NCBI GenBank assembly: GCA_037074705.1 | Contig: CM073596.1 | Location: 58,556,001 to 58,620,000, forward strand | DNA length: 64,000 nt | Direction of reading: 5' to 3' | Source: Zhengitettix transpicula | Taxonomy: Eukaryota > Arthropoda > Insecta > Orthoptera > Tetrigidae | Shown: positions 31,001 to 62,060 of the stretch, one piece after another | Layout of the letters: the number at the start of each line of letters is the position of its first letter | Numbering within the stretch: position 1 is the first letter of the stretch | Translations under genes and position numbers: made by a program | The notes under the pieces: generated by a model | Seen by the model: the letters and a program-made list of their open reading frames with translations, nothing else | Database searches by the model: none | What the model was told of the DNA's origin: nothing

Positions 31001-34000
31001 ACATAAGAACTCGATGCAGATTTTGTCTTTTTCTCTGAGTCTTTAATGGTGTGAGGAGGATCTATCGCAAGGCTGGGCGTAAGGCGTTAACAGGAAAAGA
31101 GTAGTATCATTCTCATCAAATACAGGCATTTAATTATAGTTTCTCGACCTATGTGAATGTGGGAAGTTGGACGACTGAGAGAACAAGGTGGTATTGCGGG
31201 GCGCTTTGTTGAAGAAATTGTCCAACTGAATGTGTTAAGTAACTCCTGTGGGCGGCAGTATTACAATGAGGTACATAAGCTCTGAAAATCACGATGAACT
31301 GTTGAAGTTGAGGAGATGAATGGTTCATCTGGAGAGAACAGAGTAATCACCTCCACTAAATGTTTTACTGCAATAGACATTTGAGTGGGTTTCAATCTTT
31401 TTTTTTACGTTGATTGCAGCTGTGAGCCACAAATCTGGGCCCTAACTGGCGATTTCCTCTGGTCGTTGATACCAAGGAAGTGGTTCATCAGCCGGTCAGC
31501 TGAGCATGGATTCGCCACGCCAACCGTGTGTCTGAAAGATTAATTCGTTACGGAAGTATAGCGACGAGTGACGTGCCCTCGCAAAAGTCAAAGCCGGTAA
31601 AACTGTCAGCATAATATTCATACCGGTCGGCATATTAGCATAAATAAATTAGTTTACTTTGATTTTCACCGAGGTTTAAGGCAGTGTGATTTTTACATGC
31701 TAGGTTACATATAAAGACCGGAATGATAGTTAAATATGTGAAAGTATTTTATCGCAAGACGAGCAACTTGTAGGGACACTTTTCTGGTATTCCGTTGCAT
31801 GTGTCGCGCAGTGGAGTTAAGTTCAAATCAGCTCTTCTGCTTCCAACGTCGAAACTGCTTTGGTAAAGGAACTCAAGTAAATGATTTCCTGGTGTTGAGG
31901 TTTCCTCATGTTACTCAGCGTGTGTGCTTGATATGGCGCCGGGGATGACGACTATTAGAGAGTGAAATACGAGAGCCGTGTTGGCACGCAATTCTCAACA
32001 CGCGCACACGCCAACACGCGTAGTCGTGTCCTGTCCGTGACACTGATGACTTAATAGCCGCGGTAAGACGACACCTCACAGCCTTCTTCCTCCTTATCTC
32101 TCGTCTCCAACTCTGCCCGTCTGTCTAGACAACAGGTAGTCAACTAATAGGAAAAGAACTGACAACCGTATAAAAATGCACGAGCCTACCATTCAGGTCC
32201 GGCAGATTAAAAGTATTAATGAGTTGTCGTGTAGATCAGGGAGAGTTCACATGTAGATATGGCAGTGTGTGGAGCCTCCCCCAGAAATCATCTCGCCAGG
32301 ATCATAAAGCGGGTTAACAGTAGAGGTGCGTTCCATTCAGTTTCTGTAATCCATTTACATCAATTCATGTTAATTTTTAAATTTTGTATTCTTGTAATTC
32401 CACAAAACATGGATGTGCATAAAATAATAGCAAACAATGGTAATTACAATTTCTAATTTAATTACATTTGAAATAAAAAGCGTGTAATAATTTTTTATTC
32501 TCTCTGATTTTGTTGAAATAAATTAAAAGATATATTTTATGTTTTAAAAATGAATTTTTGAAAGTATCTGGTCAACAAACGACTTTTATGTTAAATTTTG
32601 TAAGTGGACATTAAGGAGAAGCGATGGAGCGGAGAGGTTTACAGAATTCAGAGGCGAGGTAATTGCGGGTAATTTGTCCGTGGTTCGCCCACAGTAGCTA
32701 CTCATTTACATGGCTAGAGGTGGTGCTGCTGTCCTTTACAGTCGTAATCATCATATTTCATGTTCCGCGTGATGGAACCACACCTCGCTCCACTTTGCTT
32801 TCGTCTTACTTTTTAAATACATTTCCTCTGCAATCCCAGACTGAAACAAAATTTTTTCAAAAATATTTTAAACCGTTTATACTGACATGCCTGGTATAAT
32901 TATGTATATTCCTTATTTTATCTCCATATGTTTCAACTTATACCATTAATTTTTAATGTCTTAAACTCATTTATCAATTTTTAATTTAGAAGGAACTTTG
33001 GCCAGTCACAGTAATCATCTTCTGAGGTGTAGTCACAGGCTATGTGTAGGGTAATCCACATAGTGGCAACTCCCCTCTTATAGCATAGGAAAGGGATTTA
33101 AAATGGGGGATGCGGAAGGGTAGAGGAACTAGGGCCCCCGGGTTTAAGGATCCTACCCGGCATTCGCCTAAAAGTAATGCAGGGAAAACCTTAGAAAAAC
33201 CTGCATCAGGTAGGTCGGGCATCTGGTACTTGTCCCACGCCCTTCCGATGGCGGGAGAGGCATTTTTCCTGAGAGATATATGTTTGTTTTATGGAAATCC
33301 TGCGAAGTATTATATACTTTACCTTATCTACGGTCCTGACGCAGCTCAATCAAGGAACAGTATCAAATTTAATACTAACAACATTATGTACCGATGGGCT
33401 CAAGACTTAATAATGTTAAATAAGGGAACTCATATTGACACGATGAAGTAATTGAGTTAATTGCTGAAAGCGCCTTTAAATTTAATGATTGCATTTAAGA
33501 AAATAAAAATATGTCAACAAAAAAGACGTTGGGGTCAAATAATAAATAATTCTTAATGTCTTATGGAATTATTTTGGGGTAACTCCACAGGTAAAGTCAT
33601 TCAAGCCCGAAAGTTTGTTATTAGGATTATGTGTCAGGTAAATTCTGGGACTCCATATAGAGAATTATTCAATAAATTAGTTATACTTACTTGTCTAATT
33701 CATTTACTCATTGATGGTATTCGTAATAAATAATTATGGTAAATTTAGTAGCAACTCGGATATGTATCCATTTAATTCAAGAATTAAAAATAATTTACAT
33801 AACAATTATAAGTTACTGTTGGTTGCACAAAAAAAGGGGTGGAATATACAGGAATACCAATTTCTAACAAACTTCCTAATACCATTAAAGAGTTAAGAAA
33901 CACTCGAGTTGCATTCAAAAGTGAGCTTAAAAATTCGTACTCATCAACTCCTACTCAGTTTTTGGAATGTATATATAATGGTGTAAATATTTATCATGAA

Positions 34001-37000
34001 CTATGGGGGTAGCCTTTAATTATTGTATAATATTTTAAGAGTGAAGATAGAAATAACTGCTTAGAAGTTATTGCAGAGGGTCAATATTATTTCGGTTAGT
34101 AAGTTTCCCAGAAAGGTGGCACCCGTCAGGTAAACAGGTAATCAGCAGTCCGCGCAGGCTGTCCAACTTAGCCACGCTCGATTCCCCCACCGTCACGTCC
34201 AGTGTCCGTGAAAGCTCTCCTTGGCTCCGCTTCAACATTCATGAATGTATGTCCTCAGCAAGTTCTGAATTAATCGTCTGAAAAGAAAAAAAACATCTCT
34301 GCTTTACGTAACAACCCAGCTCTTTCGTCATTTTACATATTTTCCTCAGTAATATCTTTTCACGCTGTACTCTATACCACAAATATTTCAGTTATTTTAT
34401 ATAAAATAATTTCAGCAGCAGAAGAAACATATTTTAAGTTTATTATTATTTTAAGTCAACCTATATGTAATGGGGCTTTCTTTGATGCTACAATTATTTT
34501 TTATAGCAATGTTTAATTAAAAATTTAAACTAAGATTAAATGGTAGATCATAAAAATCATATCTACTGTTTCAGGATAGTTTTAAACGCAGGTAAAAATT
34601 AATTAATTAATTTTTCTGCTAACCAATAACATACAGTTCTAATTAAAGCCACAAGGTTGTCTTTAGTTTCCTTGGTACGATAGGTTCTTCATAAAATCAA
34701 CAAAACTAGTATAAAATTCACCGACTAATTAGACGGATTATTGCCACTGCAGTGAATACCCAAAGTATATTTACTTATTAAATAAATACAGAAGTGGAGA
34801 AGTAGTTCTCGATGAATGTTTGTGGTGTGCTTGTTCCAGGCCGACGGACGACGATGCTTCAACGAGCAGTAGCGGCAGCAGCTACTACGACCCTCTGGGC
34901 GAGTACCTCCACCTTCCTCGACGGCAACACTGGGCTAACAAAGTGCAGTTTGTGCTCGCGTGTGTCGGGTACTCCGTGGGCCTCGGGAATGTCTGGAGGT
35001 TCCCCTATCTCTGCTACAAGAGCGGCGGAGGTCAGTCTTAACCATCGATTACATGACGGTTTTCTTCTTCAAGTCCTTCAAAATTGTAATATGGATGGTG
35101 ATTTGTGTTTCTCATTTCAGGTGCTTTCTTGGTGCCATATTTCCTTATCCTCATAATATGTGGGATTCCAGTATTATACATGGAGCTGTCTGTAGGGCAG
35201 TTCACTAGGAGGGGTCCAATCGGAGCATTGGGTCAGATATGCCCTCTTTTCAAAGGTAATGCAATAATTATGTCTTCATTTCTGCAGCAACTTTTTTATT
35301 CATCAATTTCTGTTTGTTGCACAACTTATTGATGCATTATACTTAATGAGAAATGCGAAAGTCTTACTCCATATGGGGTAGAGAATAATTATTTGGAGCT
35401 AACTGGCAAGAAGAAACATATTGAGAAATCCAGGTATAGTTGAGGGGAACAAAAGTGAGGTAATGCAGTGATTGCTGTATATGAATATGATAATACAGAA
35501 ATGTAAAATGAAACAATTACTGTGATATAGTCACTAGGCTAATAACAAAAATAAAACATAAAAACGTTATGGGTATAGTCTTGGTATTGAATGACTATTC
35601 CATACAACATTTATCTGAATTCTTGGGTACAACAGGTAAAATTTGAAAATCTGAATCATAGTTTAATTATATTATTCCTGTTCACAACATTGACCAATTA
35701 TATAGAAATATATTATGGTAAAAAGGAGTGTTGACGTTGACGAGCAGAAAAAACCCAAAACAGTTTTTAATTTTATTAAATAATTAGTCGGAAGCTTAGT
35801 TTTAGAATAGACCTTGTTGAACAACTACATAGTTTTATAGTAGTGACTAAGTACCTATAGGTACTAATATTTTTTAAAGTTATAGTAATTTTAATCATAC
35901 GACAAGAAGGATGATTATAACAAAAGAGTTGAAAGCTTCCAACTAATTATTTAATACTATTAAAAACTTGGAGACTGTTTTTGGTTTTTTATGCTCATAG
36001 AAATATAATAAATTACAAAGTATTTTGGTCAACTAAGGCAATACAAATGTATTTTTATGTGCTTCAAAACTATAATAAAACAACTAACCAGTTTTTAAAA
36101 AATGAACAAAAAGTTATGCTAGAAAAACATTTTACTGTTTCAGGTGCAGGTCTAGCAAGTGTTGTGATATCATTCCTCATGTCAACTTACTATAATGTCA
36201 TTATAGCCTACGCTGTATACTACTTCTTCACTTCATTTAAGTCAGAAATACCTTGGCAGTTGTGTGGAAACCGCTGGAACACTCAGAGCTGCTGGAATTC
36301 AGATACACAAAAGTATAACTTCACAAGGCTAAACAATTCTAAAACACCATCTGAAGAATTTTATGAGTAAGTTAATACTAATACTTTAATCTTTTAATGT
36401 GAACTGTAAATGACTAGGTACTAACAAAACATTAATTTTAATTTATCTATGACATGCAGCAGTCTCTTCCAGTAGAGAGTGAGTAAGATAATTATTCAAA
36501 TTTTATTTAACAATGTATAAATGCATGAAATGTGTGGTACTGGAACACATCAGTAATTTATTAATTATATTCTCATTCTAACTTATATACTATATGCTAT
36601 ACATAGTTGTGCAAGTATCCTATTATCTTATATCATATTATGAATTCTTAATACTTAGTTTTTAACAGATATTTAGTGTTTCAAGTTTCACTATAACATT
36701 TTTTGACAGTCTAATATGAATTCATAATTATTAATATTTGAAGTATTTGTGTAATTCTGTTTAATTAATTTTACCTAGAGTATAATATAACTGTAAACTT
36801 AGTACAAGTCAGTATATAAATTAATGGAGATATTAAAGTATTTATTGTAAAGTATTAATTATTTAATTATTGTTCAGTTCAGGCAATTGTGATGATATTC
36901 TTATGATTAATGAGTTTTAAAAATTAAGTATACACCATAAGCATCTCTCATGAAATGGTAACTATGATGTCTCTCAATTTTCCTTTCTTAATTCATTAAG

Positions 37001-40000
37001 AGTAATGATTATTAACTGTGCAGGATGTTAACTCATTTATATATATAATGTTCATACTATTGTCAATTAAAGTACTTGAAAGAAAAAATACAAATAATAA
37101 ATGCAAAAAACATGTTCTATATGGTATTATGACCACAAATTTAACTCAGTATTATCCATTTGTGTTAATTATATAATAATTACATTCCATGTTTTGCCAA
37201 AAATTGCATAGTGACGTGCAGTTCAATTTTCAGGAACAAGGTCCTGCAAATCAGCAACGGCATTGAATTTCCTGGTGAGATCAGATGGGAATTGGCTGCT
37301 TGTTTGCTCGTTGCCTGGATCCTTGTCTACTTTTCTATTTGGAAAGGAGTAAAATCTTCAGGAAAAGTGCTTTACTTCACTGCTACCTTTCCTTACATTC
37401 TCATAATAGCCTTTCTGTCAACATCTCTCACCCTTGAAGGAGCAAACAAAGGCCTGAGGTTCTTCTTCCAACCCAAATGGCAAGACCTAGCAAACTCTAA
37501 GGTAATTTGAGGCAGTCCTGAACTAAATTAATGATTTTGTTGGCAAATAATGTGAAGCATTGGACAATTACTGTTACGAACATTATTATCGTATATTAAA
37601 AAATGAAATATACAGACACTTCATAGGTCCTATGTCTTTTGCTGTGCTTAATAGCTTTCTTTTCAACACTAAATATTTATGCAGGAATTTAAATATATGT
37701 ATATATTACTGAAAAACAACTAATTCAGGTTTGTCATAGCTTTTGGCATTTCTGCATTTTTCAATACTGTGTTTCTGGACCATTGTAAGTAAATTATTCA
37801 AAATCATAACCAATTTAATAATAAAATTATGTTAATAATGATTGCATACAATTATCTTAAAATATTCAACAATGGATAACTATGTTGGAAAATATAAAAA
37901 AAACTAACTACTAATTTCTAAATTAATTAAAATATATTTTCCATATAATAGAGTGTCAATGTAAAGTAAATTTAAAGTTAATCATTTTCCTCATTGTTTG
38001 TAAATTAATATTAGTTCAAATTAGAAATCCGTAAAAGGTTAAAACAAAAATTGGGAAGCAAAGGGGTGAAGACATTTCTCTTTGCAGATGACAGTGGTGT
38101 AGAGGTTATGAAAATCTGCAGAAATCTAGAGAATATTATCACTGAATATGGAAAAATTAACAAGGAAATTGGGTAGAGAATTCAGCAAACAAATAGGTTT
38201 TAACAGACTGTGAGAGACTTAATGTGTAACAAAGAAGTTCTAGAAGAATGAATGTATTCAGTGTATTGTGCACTGATATTGAAGTATCCAGGAGGAAAGT
38301 AAAATCCAAGCAACCAAAATTAAGTTCCTGAGAGGATTATTAAGAAAGTCACAGAGAGATCAGGTCAGAAATGAGAAAATTAGAGAAAAAACCAGGTTCA
38401 CAAAAATACGAATCAATATAAGAAATACTGAAGGAAGGAAAAGAGTTGTGGAGAAAAAGACAAATGTGGAGGGCCTCGACTCACATCCCAACCCAAAAGA
38501 CTGGAAACAGGAAATGAAGAAGAAGGATATTAATTCATATTAAAAAATATTGAATCAGTTTTTAGTAAAAGGTTATTGGAAAAAATATTTGAATTTAAAA
38601 AAATAATTCCAAAACACTTGAGTATAATGTTGGTAATATTCTTTAAATTTCCAAGAATATTTACTTATTTCCTTTTGTAAAAATTGTATAAGCTTCATTT
38701 TTCATATCAATATTTTTTTTTTTTAGGTTTGGGTGAATGCTCTTGCTCAGAACTTCAATTCTTTGGGAATTGCATTTGGTTCTGTGCTGTCATTTGCAAG
38801 TTACAATAAGTATCACAACTACATTTTGGTTGATACATTGGCCATATCCACCATAAATGCTGTCACTAGCCTTTTAGTGGGGATATTTGCTTTTGCAACT
38901 ATTGGAAACATTGCCACTGAGCTGGGTAGGACAGTTGATGATGTAATATCAGATGGTAAGATTTAGTTTCAGATATAGATTAATCTTTTAATGCATTGTT
39001 TTCAAAATTGAAATTAATAAATTGTGTATATGAATGTGTATAAATTTTTTTTTTCAGGCCCAGGTTTAGTTTTTGTTGTGTACCCACAAGCCATGGCAAA
39101 GATGCCTGTTTCCCAATTATGGGCTGTACTGTTCTTTTTCATGCTATTATGTTTGAGCTTAAACAGTCAGGTGATTATTCTTTAGTTTCATACATTTATT
39201 AATCTTAAGACTTAATTTAATTTTTTTAAATATATATGTTATTTAAAAAAATATAAGATTGAGTATAGTATAATAATGCCAGTAAACATTTAAATAAAAA
39301 TAATTTATTATCTGAATCTCAGTTTGGATTCAGAACTGAATATTCAAATGAGAAGGTCACAAGCACCCTATTAGAACAAACATTAGGTTAATTAAATAGT
39401 AAATGATACTCACTATGAATAATTTGTGATTTCTGTAAAGAAATTGACTGTGTAAATCACAATATTCTACCAGAAGAATATCTTATTTATGGCATAGTTA
39501 TTAATTATCAGGTGTTGGACAGGATCGAGGTCTTTAAATTATCAGAGGCATTAGAGTGCTTTGAGCGGGCCGACCGAAGAGCATCTGTGGAATATGATTC
39601 TATTCAATTCCATTCAATCAAATGCTATCATTTTATTTATCTTTAAGTTATATTTCAGGTTGAATTAAGTTTTCATTTTATAAATTGGTAATAGATATTT
39701 TTTTTAAACTTTATTTTTGTTGCACATTATTTTCTCACCAGTTTGCCATTGTTGAGGTAGTCATCACATCAATTCAAGATGGATTCCCCAAATGGATCAA
39801 GAAACATCTTATGTGCCATGAGATGTTGGTGCTTGTTGTCTGTATTGTCTCTTTCTTGTTTGGTTTACCACATATAACACAGGTAATTATTTATTGTTAC
39901 GATATAGTGCTAATCATGTACACTATTTTATTACCATTTTAAATGTAATGAGTTTAGTTTAATTTTGTTTGACTATATTCTATATTTATAACAGTTCACT

Positions 40001-49089: not shown

Positions 49090-50243
49090 TTATATTAAAA
49101 TAAACTTTTGGTCCTGAGAATTACAGTTATGATGATTGAAACGTCATCATAGTGTTTAGAATTTGAAGACGTGGGGTCTTGGATATGACCCTTGTCATTC
49201 CAAGGTGGAGTCGAGAGAAACCGACCAACTTGTTTGCAAGGTGTTAACGAAGGTTTGCCGGCATGGTGCTTGGGAAAGATCTGCTCATCGGGTGTTGTGA
49301 GGTGCAATAGGGAGGTTATGGGGATGAAGTAGTGCCAGTTGGTAGGTAGGGGTAGGGTATCTAGGGAGTGAAGATGTATCGTAAAAATCTTTTCCAATTC
49401 CGCTGTCGTAAGACTGCCTTCTGCTGTTAGATTGTGATGTGTGATGTGTTTGAATACCAATATTTTTCCTGTTACTCTCTCTTTATAAAAGCTTCAGATG
49501 ATTGACTGTCTTTTGGCATAATACCTTGCTCAACTTCAATTCCTGCTTCTTTCAGAGTGTAACATCCCAAACTGCCATCATGTAACACTCCACCACTGTG
49601 AACATGTAACATTCCAGCAGTTGGGAATGGGAAGTCCAGATAGATCGTTCACCAACCGAGCTATACCTCCGTTAGCTCACCTGGCTACCGATCTAGAGGA
49701 TAAAGGAAGAATTAAGAACAGGAAAGTCGGAAACGTGAGGGTTCGGGTTCAACTAATTGAACCTAGGTGTAGTGGTTGGTGTTTCGCTGCACTTCAGTCA
49801 AATAAGAGCTGATGAAGAATAAAAGAGATTTAATAGTTAGAAATAAAATAAAGTAAGACAAACTGGCGGATAGCACCAGGAGCCACCGACCCGTCTGGAG
49901 GTTGGATCACGACTGCCGTTCCCAAGAAGCTCTGAACAATTCGAAGACTCCTGTGCCCCCTCCCTGATAATTTTAAGTCTCCAATGAGAACTCTTACAGG
50001 GTGGAAGATTTCTGCTGCCGTGTGCATGTCTGCATAAGGCACTTAAAATGCTGACTTCATTAGACGCAGCGTTTTCACAGCTGCCTAGGCGGAAGGGGTG
50101 AAGATTTATGTTGTGGTGCGTATCGTTACTCACTATATCTAAAGTGATGTCTTTAACTGCATCAGCGTTCTTGCAGCTGCGCCCTCTTAGGTCCGCTATG
50201 CTGAAGAGACGTTATGATAAGAGGGCACGTGTAGACTATTATA
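49090..50243. other. Unassigned sequence next to the ribD fragment
   Basis: A 121-codon minus frame (49095-49460) and two overlapping minus frames (49830-50133) are open but unrecognised. No further bacterial-looking protein was identified here. Confidence 0.35.
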
Positions 50244-50586
50244 TTACAAGAGCTTTAATGCCTCCACCTGAAACTCTACTATCTTGGTCAATAGTTGCAA
50301 TTACTACCCTTCTTACACCAGCTTTTATGATTTCTGCAATGCAAGGCCCTGTGGCTCCGTGATGACAACATGGCTCTAGAGTGATATATATATATATATA
50401 TAGTTGCACCATGAGTTGAATCCTTTTAGCGTTTTGCAAAGCAGCTGCTTCTGCATGTGGTCGCCCACCAACTCCTCCTGTATGTCCCTTTACAATAACA
50501 CTCCCGACAGCAGGATTTGGTACAACATTTCCAAGATTCTTCTCTGCAAGCTTTAATGCAATTGACATGAAGTGATAGTCTGTCAT
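50244..50586 (-). pseudogene. ribD: Fragment of bacterial ribD (riboflavin deaminase domain), laterally acquired
   Basis: The minus-strand frame from the ATG at 50586 reads as the N-terminal deaminase domain of RibD, which deaminates the pyrimidine intermediate of bacterial riboflavin synthesis. Visible family motifs in order: FMSIALKLAEKNLGN, NPAVGSVIV, GGRPHAEAAAL with the catalytic HAE, TLEPCCHHGATGPC with both zinc-ligand Cys, AGVRRVVIA and SRVSGGGIKAL. Compared with the family, a few residues are missing between VIVK and GHTG. A TA dinucleotide run at 50384-50401 replaces the strand before TLEPC. The frame then stops soon after GIKAL, and no reductase domain follows. About 115 of the usual 350 or more residues remain. 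Animals lack RibD. The AT-leaning sequence and wording look most like Wolbachia/Rickettsiales proteins, but that origin is inferred. A Jockey-like RT tail ends about 15 bp away. Confidence 0.85.
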
Positions 50587-50600
50587 TAGAAAGAAGTCAT

Positions 50601-50915
50601 TTAATAGAGTAAGGTAATTCCAGAGGGATTTAGGAGAGGGGGAAAGATGATGTCAATTTGGGATGTGCGAGTCTTCGGGTTGCTGTAGAAGAGCTCCATG
50701 GCTGGATTTGGGTGGTTGATTGAACAACTTGTTAGGGACTTGGTGGATTTGTAAATTATGGTAGGAATTAGAGGAATTTCAAGGTCGTTGTGGATAACAG
50801 AGTTGCGAAAGTACAAATGGGAATTAGAAATTAATCGGAGAATTATTTTTAACTTTTTTGTGGAGTGGGAATAGGCAGTGTGGATCCCCATATGGCACAC
50901 GAGTATTGACCACAT
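50601..50915 (-). pseudogene. Jockey-like non-LTR retrotransposon, RT C-terminal remnant
   Basis: The minus-strand frame reads LKIILRLISNSHLYFRNSVI followed by a HNDLEIPLIPTIIYK stretch, then HPNP. This is the pattern RxIxxAxxYxRNxxIHxDLxIPxxxxxI typical of the C-terminal end of Jockey-clade reverse-transcriptase proteins. It stops at 50601, just upstream of the ribD fragment on the same strand. The polymerase core is absent. Confidence 0.6.
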
Positions 50916-53474: not shown

Positions 53475-53985
53475 TTAGGGTAACAGGCTACATGAGGGTA
53501 ATCCACATGGTGGCAACTTCCCTTTAATAGCATAGGAAGGGATTTGAAAGGGGGGATGCGGAAGGGTAGAGGAAGGTAGCCAAGACTTAACTAGAACCCC
53601 TCGGGCTATGGTTTAAGGATCCTACCGGGCAATTCGCCTAAAAGTAATGCAGGGAAAACCCCTAGAAAAACCTGCATCTGGTTGGTCGGGCATTGGGTAC
53701 TTGTCCCACGCCCTTCCGATAGCGGGAGAGGAGTTTGCTGTGGGGACGCAGCATTCCCTTCTCCGTACTTCGACCAGTTTAGGAGGCAGCTGGCCGAGTG
53801 TTCCAATGGGAATAGTCCCAAGGTCTGTGACCCCGGAACACACACCTCTCAGAACAGGCCGAGGTGCCTCGACTTGTGGGAACCTTAGTTCAAAAACGGA
53901 GAGAGGAAAAGACATCCCCAAAGGTAGTCTCTTCCTGTCTCTCCTTCAAGGTACTGCCTGCGAGAGAATAGCCCTCGCAGACAAT
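53475..53985 (-). mobile_element. SINE-like retroposon, near full length
   Basis: Reverse orientation from the tail at 53475 to the 5' hairpin at 53985. Flanks atcgatctcttt and atcgatatcttt agree in 11 of 12 bases and are a probable target duplication. A GT run (53418-53432) and a TA run (53252-53295) lie beside it. Confidence 0.75.
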
Positions 53986-54854
53986 CGATATCTTTGCTTG
54001 AACTGTTCTTTTATTCTTTGCTTCTTTACTCGCCGCAGATTCCTTTCAATATAGGCTTAATCTGTTGAATTACACGAAGGTCCATCTGAGGGAATACTTA
54101 ACGCCCTCGTATGGTGGAAGACTTAAATGTCAGGTGAGGGATCCGGACCAGTACACGGGTAGGAAGGGAAATCTACATTAGCGTATTAAATGTTCTCCTT
54201 AATGTTTGCTGACGCCACACGTGCGTTCAGATTATTTGCCAATTACATTAACTGCATCCAAGATGGCGTAAATAATGGAGTCTTATAAGCGCACTGGCTT
54301 CTCGGGTGTGGCCACGCTACATTTAGCGCTGCAATTACAAAACTTAGGTACAAGTTTAATTGCCTTCGACGTACTGATATTTTTGGCCCCGGCTATTTTA
54401 ACTCTTCTCCCACTCCGCGCTAGTTTAATTACGAGTGCATCTATATTTCCCCTCCCAGGGTCTACATGAAGATTAAAAATGCCACCGTGTCCTAAATACG
54501 GGGAATTCAATTAAATGCGACCACGACAAAGCGTTTCGATTTCTTTAAACGAATTAAAGACAGTTTCTCCAAGTCTTAAAAAAAATTTTCTTTCGGCATT
54601 TCCCAGTCCTTAAATAGAGAACAAGTAGATTACAACAGACACACGAGGTCAGACAGGGAAAAACAAACAAAAAACACGACACTTGTAACGTGGAAACTAT
54701 TTTTCCCGATACAGTGTTCCAAGTAACCTTACGCGGTGACAATTGAGCTCTTTATTGATCGACTCACTTGCAGTGGGTGAGCGGATGTTTTTACGACGCT
54801 AAGGCGGTCAGTGTCTCTGTATCTGAAGCAGCTAACCTAATTTTATTGGACGAT
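53986..54854. other. No gene recognised
   Basis: Unassigned. A 75-codon minus frame at 54283-54510 shows no motif. Confidence 0.4.
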
Positions 54855-60988: not shown

Positions 60989-61553
60989 TTTTTTTTGGGT
61001 GTAGACAGGCTACATGAGGGTAATCCACATAGTGGCAACTCCCCTCTTATAGCATAGGAAAGGGATTTGAAAGGGGGGATGCCGAAGGGTAGAGGAAGGT
61101 AGCCAAGGGTTACTAGGGCCCCCGGGCTATAGTTTAAGGATCCTACCCGGCATTCGCCTAAAGAAATACAGGGAAAGCCCTAGAAAAACCTGCATCAGGT
61201 AGGTCGGGCATTGGGTACTTGTCCCACGCCCTTCCGATAGCGGGAGAGGAATTTTCTGTGGGGACACAGCATTCCCTTCTCCGTGCCTCGACCAGTTTAG
61301 GAGGCAGCTGGCCGACTGTTCCAATGGGAACAGAGAACAACTCTTACCGTATGCCCAAGGTCTGTGACCAGGAACATACACCTCTCAAAACAGGCCGAGG
61401 TGCCTCGGCTTGTAGGAACCTTAGTTCAAAAACGGCGAGAGGAGAAGGCATCCCCAAAGGTAGCCCCTTCGTATCTCTCCTACAAGGTTCTGCCTGCGAG
61501 AGAACATTCCTCGCAGGTACTGCCTGCGAGAGAATAGCCCTCGCAGACCTCCC
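60989..61553 (-). mobile_element. SINE-like retroposon, near full length, tail type 2
   Basis: Reverse orientation from gggtgtagacaggctacatg to tagccctcgcagacc. Two 5' hairpins are present. Its 5' end abuts the next PLE remnant. Confidence 0.8.
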
Positions 61554-61574
61554 CAACAAGGGGGAGTCGCAGGA

Positions 61575-62060
61575 TTAACGTGGCCTAAGAGTACCCAGGA
61601 GTATTCCACGTGCCTGCGGGTTACAAAGTATATGTAGGACACAGTTGAAGAACGTATAACTGAGCATGAAAGATCTCTCAGACTGAAACAACCAGCTTCG
61701 ATGCTCGGCCCCGAAATAAAATTTAATGAAACTAAGATCCTGAACCAATACTTCTGGGACAGTGTGCTTCTAGAAGCACATTGAAATAAAAACAAATACA
61801 CAGATTAACTTACCAAGGACTGAGAGGCTTTACGGTAAGCAACGGTCCTGGAAAATCCCGCCTTATCACGAATCAGGCCTTTTAAGGTAATAAGCAAGGC
61901 GCGACGAGGTCACGTGATGAGGCACGTGCTGGCGCTGAGCAACTAAAAGTCACCTGATGGCGGAGCCAGGCCACATGACACAGGACTAACAGGAATGCTA
62001 GAAGACAATGGCGGTGAGCGTCATCGAAACGTCGTGAATACAATTGATTACCCGGTTGGA
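61575..62060 (+). pseudogene. Penelope-like element: GIY-YIG remnant and 3' end
   Basis: Frames give IPRACGLQ, then RITEHERSLRLKQPASM and EIKFNETKILNQYFWDSVL. This matches the endonuclease pattern CxCGxxYIGQT...ERIxEHERxxRLxQP...FxETKIL...YxxRxI. YIG itself is mutated (tatgtagga). About 200 bp after the protein part is a hammerhead-like motif (gaagacaatggcggtgag...catcgaaacgtcgtg, about 62002-62036). Confidence 0.65.

Follow-up and report, generated by a model that had tools for sequence, protein, structure and literature searches.

The transfer of Wolbachia DNA to host genomes has been called common (PMC9894559), and such nuclear Wolbachia transfers (NUWTs) are described from 22 genomes of filarial nematodes, many of them derived from a supergroup other than that of the live infection and most of them said to evolve neutrally (PMC12693587). 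The grasshopper Chorthippus parallelus is reported to carry FISH-verified Wolbachia inserts from supergroups B and F, of at least 448 and 144 kb (PMC4675112), and for Dictyocaulus viviparus a past infection was inferred from the Wolbachia fossils of its genome (PMC4046930). The locus analysed here, a piece of the bacterial gene ribD in an animal chromosome, is almost certainly another NUWT, which later decayed and was then split by a host repeat. It resembles the filarial NUWTs as they are described, in that these too are decayed Wolbachia pieces in chromosomes, often of another supergroup than the live infection, but the host, presumably an arthropod, belongs to a different group and a single piece with a later repeat insertion is dissected here (PMC12693587). 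As in C. parallelus, more than one Wolbachia lineage would have given DNA to one animal genome, although the inserts reported there are large and FISH-verified, whereas ours is a 400-bp piece placed by gene tree (PMC4675112). The case of D. viviparus is similar in its short disabled Wolbachia genes assembled with host DNA, with the difference that the infection reported there lay in the past, whereas our assembly includes a Wolbachia contig as well, one that seems to belong to another lineage (PMC4046930). Both this kind of NUWT and the mismatch with the resident strain are thus already in print, going by the account given of the filarial genomes (PMC12693587). No title on this very ribD piece was met in a search of the literature, which was made without the host name and thus says little.

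The window, by which we mean the whole stretch of 64,000 nucleotides that was analysed, corresponds to positions 58556001-58620000 of contig C7, itself 76.2 Mb long, in a genome of 993.6 Mb assembled in 337 contigs. A sequence-only reading of this DNA had proposed a bacterial ribD fragment in an animal genome, more narrowly that of an insect, and the flanks show the host to be an animal: window positions 35933-37510, about 12 kb from the ribD piece, encode on the plus strand exons of an SLC6 neurotransmitter symporter of animal type (PF00209, E 7.5e-35 and 6.6e-19; PDB transporters also match). Stop-free frames of at least 150 codons make up about 2% of the window, versus 74-83% when C14:1-200000 is taken in four quarters of 50 kb, C14 being the contig of the resident Wolbachia. 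In a comparison of the window with about 212 kb of this 652-kb resident contig and with eight ribD neighbourhoods, no more Wolbachia DNA was found. Three frames of the window (33089-33451, 53617-54054 and 61162-61578) share a repeat-like peptide, about EKPASGxSGIxYLSHALPxAGE; a protein search with the last of them returned no homologs.

The match to RibD lies on a minus-strand frame, 50239-50652, whose Met is at 50586, and is far above chance: the profile search gave TIGR00326 (E 3.9e-25, model positions 1-109 of 343) and PF00383 (E 3.4e-12), and PDB RibD chains were matched with E down to 2.7e-19. The RibD deaminase domain read from the letters of the minus strand is thus real. With intact resident ribD as the query, a second part was found at 49509-49550 (TBLASTN and BLASTN), and it was lengthened to 49557 by matches to other Wolbachia strains. 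On the donor sequence the two parts lie directly next to each other, with four bases duplicated (codons 114-115 overlap), and the Wolbachia DNA amounts in total to about 400 bp, comprising the end of the gene dgt and ribD codons 1-130 (Table 1). The sequence-only reading had the piece start at a Met and end before the reductase domain; the Met is there, but the Wolbachia DNA begins further upstream, in dgt, and the piece does end before this domain (codon 130, versus residue 147 for the beginning of the reductase domain in the resident RibD), but at 49509 and not at 50244. A functional RibD has both the deaminase and the reductase domain, and the nuclear piece has only the former; its TIGR00326 score is 88.8 bits, where the cut-off is 156.35. 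The HAE and PCC...PC zinc-site motifs can still be read, but a deletion precedes them and an out-of-frame stretch separates them; the frame stays open for 115 codons from the Met and terminates inside the inserted repeat.

Table 1. Features of the ribD piece (window positions) and chromosomal matches to the resident Wolbachia contig (contig positions).
Feature	Location	Strand	Identity	Basis
ribD continuation, codons 114-130; first 4 bases are the other target-site duplication copy	49509..49557	-	86-92% to 8 of 9 Wolbachia loci	BLASTN
Target-site duplication AGAG, left copy, ribD sequence	49554..49557	.
Repeat, 691 bp, TG...CA ends (TGTAA...TTACA), inside the ribD piece, read as solo LTR	49558..50248	.		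other genome copies and target-site duplication
Target-site duplication AGAG, right copy, ribD sequence	50249..50252	.
Wolbachia-derived ribD codons 1-115, deaminase domain, with indels; last 4 bases are a target-site duplication copy	50249..50586	-		RibD profile, BLASTN/TBLASTN, DNA alignment
TA tract, grown by 10 bp out of the TA run that the nearest strains have	50384..50402	-		alignment and strings
Place of +2-bp insertion, shifting the frame for 13 codons	50422..50425	-		alignments and strings
Junction where 21 bp flanked by two AGG repeats in the nearest strain were lost, +3 bp just after	50485..50489	-		strings; authors' reading
3' end of upstream Wolbachia gene dgt, 16 bases, overlapping the ribD start	50587..50602	-		Wolbachia locus comparison
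Wolbachia-like match	C2:98248692-98249254		100% (563 bp)
Wolbachia-like match	C3:108949415-108949739		99%
Wolbachia-like match	C3:78664224-78664338		97%
Wolbachia-like match	C4:87734306-87734502		89%
Wolbachia-like match	C2:33481001-33481279		87%
Wolbachia-like match	C7:67386500-67386686		82%
Wolbachia-like match	C2:125668753-125669154		77%

The piece is of Wolbachia origin, the donor that had been proposed. It nests within the diversity of Wolbachia ribD in both the protein and the DNA tree, and it keeps the junction of dgt and ribD. The end of dgt stands directly before the ribD start in all nine Wolbachia loci compared (the resident copy of this gene is a dGTP triphosphohydrolase, NF002326, E 4.6e-43), and the 16 bases that precede the Met in the window are identical in 27 of 34 Wolbachia loci, with one or two changes in the other seven; the junction is absent from the outgroup L019. 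These 34 loci contain duplicates (L011 and L137 are identical, as are L015 and L150), and 33 of the 35 rows of the DNA tree differ. Of the 41 genomes searched within the genus, 35 gave a match to the ribD piece, one of them (G008) by 21 bases only, and the other six gave none; 30 of the 35 matching genomes were turned into loci. The best genome (G006) stands at 84%, followed by G011 and G035 at 83%, and the resident at 75%. The DNA tree, built on 35 rows and 391 columns, places the window with loci L124, L125 and L126 (support 97/96), and within this group with L124 alone (support 91/75). Forcing the window and the resident into a pair costs 71 log units (AU test, p = 0.0002), the pair and not the resident's whole clade being what was tested on DNA. 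In the protein tree (125 rows, 114 columns, with P0141 and P0145 left out as they have no deaminase domain), the window's group has a support of 80, and a place in the resident's clade is not rejected (AU test, p = 0.41). The resident strain is thus rejected as the donor on DNA and not on protein, and it is on DNA only that a donor from another Wolbachia lineage is supported. The resident ribD itself groups in the protein tree with wNo, wVulC and others, a group which we take to be supergroup B.

RibD-like proteins are also recorded for three arthropods. That of the leafhopper Macrosteles quadrilineatus (P0135) is a full-length Wolbachia-like RibD of 359 aa on a 208-Mb contig and looks intact; it may be a gene kept by this insect, unlike the present piece. 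The records of the spider Trichonephila clavata (P0001, 190 aa, ending early in the reductase domain) and of the fly Rhagoletis zephyria (P0123, 360 aa) may be transfers or contamination.

The resident contig is 651,692 bp long and contains an intact ribD, as well as five tRNA genes in the 209 kb scanned; a DNA search of the assembly for ribD gave one nuclear place and the resident gene. This contig is rich in two repeats, one of 1.57 kb (L091 7604-9176) with 18 full-length copies, the query's own included, and one of 1.34 kb (L104 3425-4768) with at least 28 near full-length copies, all at 99-100% identity and with partial copies in addition; both are probably recently spread insertion sequences. 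Two pieces of the contig (9.3 and 10 kb, about 3% of it) match at least seven chromosomal places outside C14, at 77-100% (Table 1), where 40 of 102 and 39 of 89 candidates were scored and the counts are minima; for the second piece they are lower bounds also because the query's own place on C14 is missing among the matches listed. Six of the seven matches fall in parts of the queries that are repeated many times on C14, and since these parts are taken as insertion sequences, the six may come from mobile elements. Taken together, the seven matches suggest a repeated transfer of Wolbachia DNA over a long time. We are evenly divided as to whether the Wolbachia insertions in the chromosomes form a record through time to which two or more lineages contributed, that of an older ribD donor, absent from the assembly, and that of the resident. 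If they do, the repeat inside the ribD piece would give a minimum age for the replacement of one strain by the other, and the resident lineage would be the source of the near-identical chromosomal pieces.

One might speculate that the ribD piece did not come from a past infection but arrived via another organism (a parasitoid, a mite or prey) or via another mobile element. Such a route would be in line with the difference between donor and resident on DNA, and with the spider record P0001, which bears a ribD piece of the same strain group, but an unsystematic look beside the piece recognised no foreign passenger DNA, and the three chromosomal matches elsewhere that are 97-100% identical to the resident suggest that transfer is usually direct. 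We thus regard an indirect arrival as improbable and return to the NUWT, whose later history can be read from the piece itself.

Compared with L124, the nuclear ribD has 34 differences in 391 aligned columns and indels of -21, +3, +2 and +10 bp, of which the aligner draws the 21-bp loss and the 3-bp gain as one 18-bp gap. The small deletion and the TA microsatellite named by the sequence-only reading are both present (21 bp and +10 bp), but its list of indels lacked the 3- and 2-bp insertions. The indels are in frame only as a sum: 13 codons are out of frame because the 2-bp insertion precedes the growth of the TA tract, which restores the frame. Where L124, L125 and L126 agree, the changes found in the window only number 5 of 120, 10 of 120 and 9 of 107 sites at codon positions 1, 2 and 3, a spread that shows no departure from even (p = 0.37), with low power for 24 changes; the comparison of the third-position share gave p = 0.066 for the window versus the resident and p = 0.005 versus L134. 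The pN/pS ratio is 0.38 between the window and L124, and 0.11-0.28 between nine live-strain loci and L124. There is no stop in the nuclear ribD ahead of the repeat; as the chance of this is 0.39-0.52, the open frame says little either way. The frame-shifting indels and the near-even codon positions, at the low power noted, fit the evolution of an NUWT without constraint on the frame. The piece thus appears to have decayed without visible constraint, through substitutions, the 21-bp deletion, frame-shifting insertions and the growth of the TA tract, and it is most likely that it has no function. The host could instead have kept the piece as a small domesticated deaminase, with the HAE and PCC...PC motifs and the 115-codon open frame from a Met as its signs. 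This we consider very improbable, as 21 bp were lost with 3 gained, 13 codons are out of frame, the reductase domain is absent, the frame ends inside the repeat, the codon positions are near even, and a frame would stay open by chance about half the time.

The repeat that splits the piece occurs at 39 other places at 96-97% identity among the 40 scored of 1224 first-look candidates, so that the counts are minima, and these copies are spread over contigs C1 to C7. Eight copies were extracted, that in ribD included: seven have an exact 4-bp duplication, the eighth being altered at one end, and the seven end in TG...CA, or in TG...TA in one case. Such ends, target-site duplications of fixed length and many copies are the marks of a solo LTR. 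Gypsy-type elements commonly make 4-bp duplications and end in TG...CA, and for this reason the 691-bp repeat is read as probably the solo LTR left by an LTR retrotransposon, although it may alternatively be a non-autonomous DNA transposon.

Whatever its class, because this repeat has 39 further scored copies on C1-C7, the DNA that it splits is chromosomal and not contamination: the ribD piece is part of a host chromosome and continuous with host DNA in a 76-Mb contig, with the host repeat inside it and the SLC6 gene in the same window. A misjoin in the assembly of bacterial DNA, for instance from the resident Wolbachia, to host DNA can be rejected as having a negligible probability, for although C14 with its intact ribD is in the same assembly, the piece is broken, only 75% identical to C14, and contains a host repeat with its target-site duplication. 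The proposal that the piece has been evolving as nuclear DNA is borne out by its decay within the host contig and by this insertion. A host repeat was inserted into ribD, and therefore the ribD piece was already part of the host genome; the repeat insertion came after the transfer of the Wolbachia DNA. The copy in ribD shows 6 private changes among 683 columns, or about 0.9%, while the branch to the window's ribD in the DNA tree has a length of 0.093 per site, and on this basis the transfer would clearly be the older event. It looks roughly ten times older than the repeat, on the two assumptions that the rates are alike and that the branch is mostly nuclear.

The history of the NUWT is best pictured as follows. 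About 400 bp of Wolbachia DNA, with the end of dgt and ribD codons 1-130, was inserted into an animal chromosome, going by the DNA tree from a donor strain of a lineage other than that of the present resident. Wolbachia is found in the germline, and breaks in chromosomes can trap stray DNA from bacteria. We infer that the piece came in by such a capture at a break in a germline chromosome; its ends, one inside dgt and the other inside ribD, fit the capture of a random fragment. Entry may also have been through an RNA intermediate, given that the overlapping genes dgt and ribD could be transcribed together. After the insertion, the piece decayed by the substitutions, the 21-bp deletion, the frame-shifting insertions and the TA growth described above, and at a later time it received the host repeat, which is probably what remains, as a solo LTR, of an inserted LTR retrotransposon.

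Alone, the piece is of little weight, being one more decayed Wolbachia fragment. It carries a warning, in that no riboflavin gene should be annotated in this animal from it. Through the host repeat that it contains, events can be put in order, and its use is that of a fossil, which suggests that the host line has met a Wolbachia lineage other than the current one.
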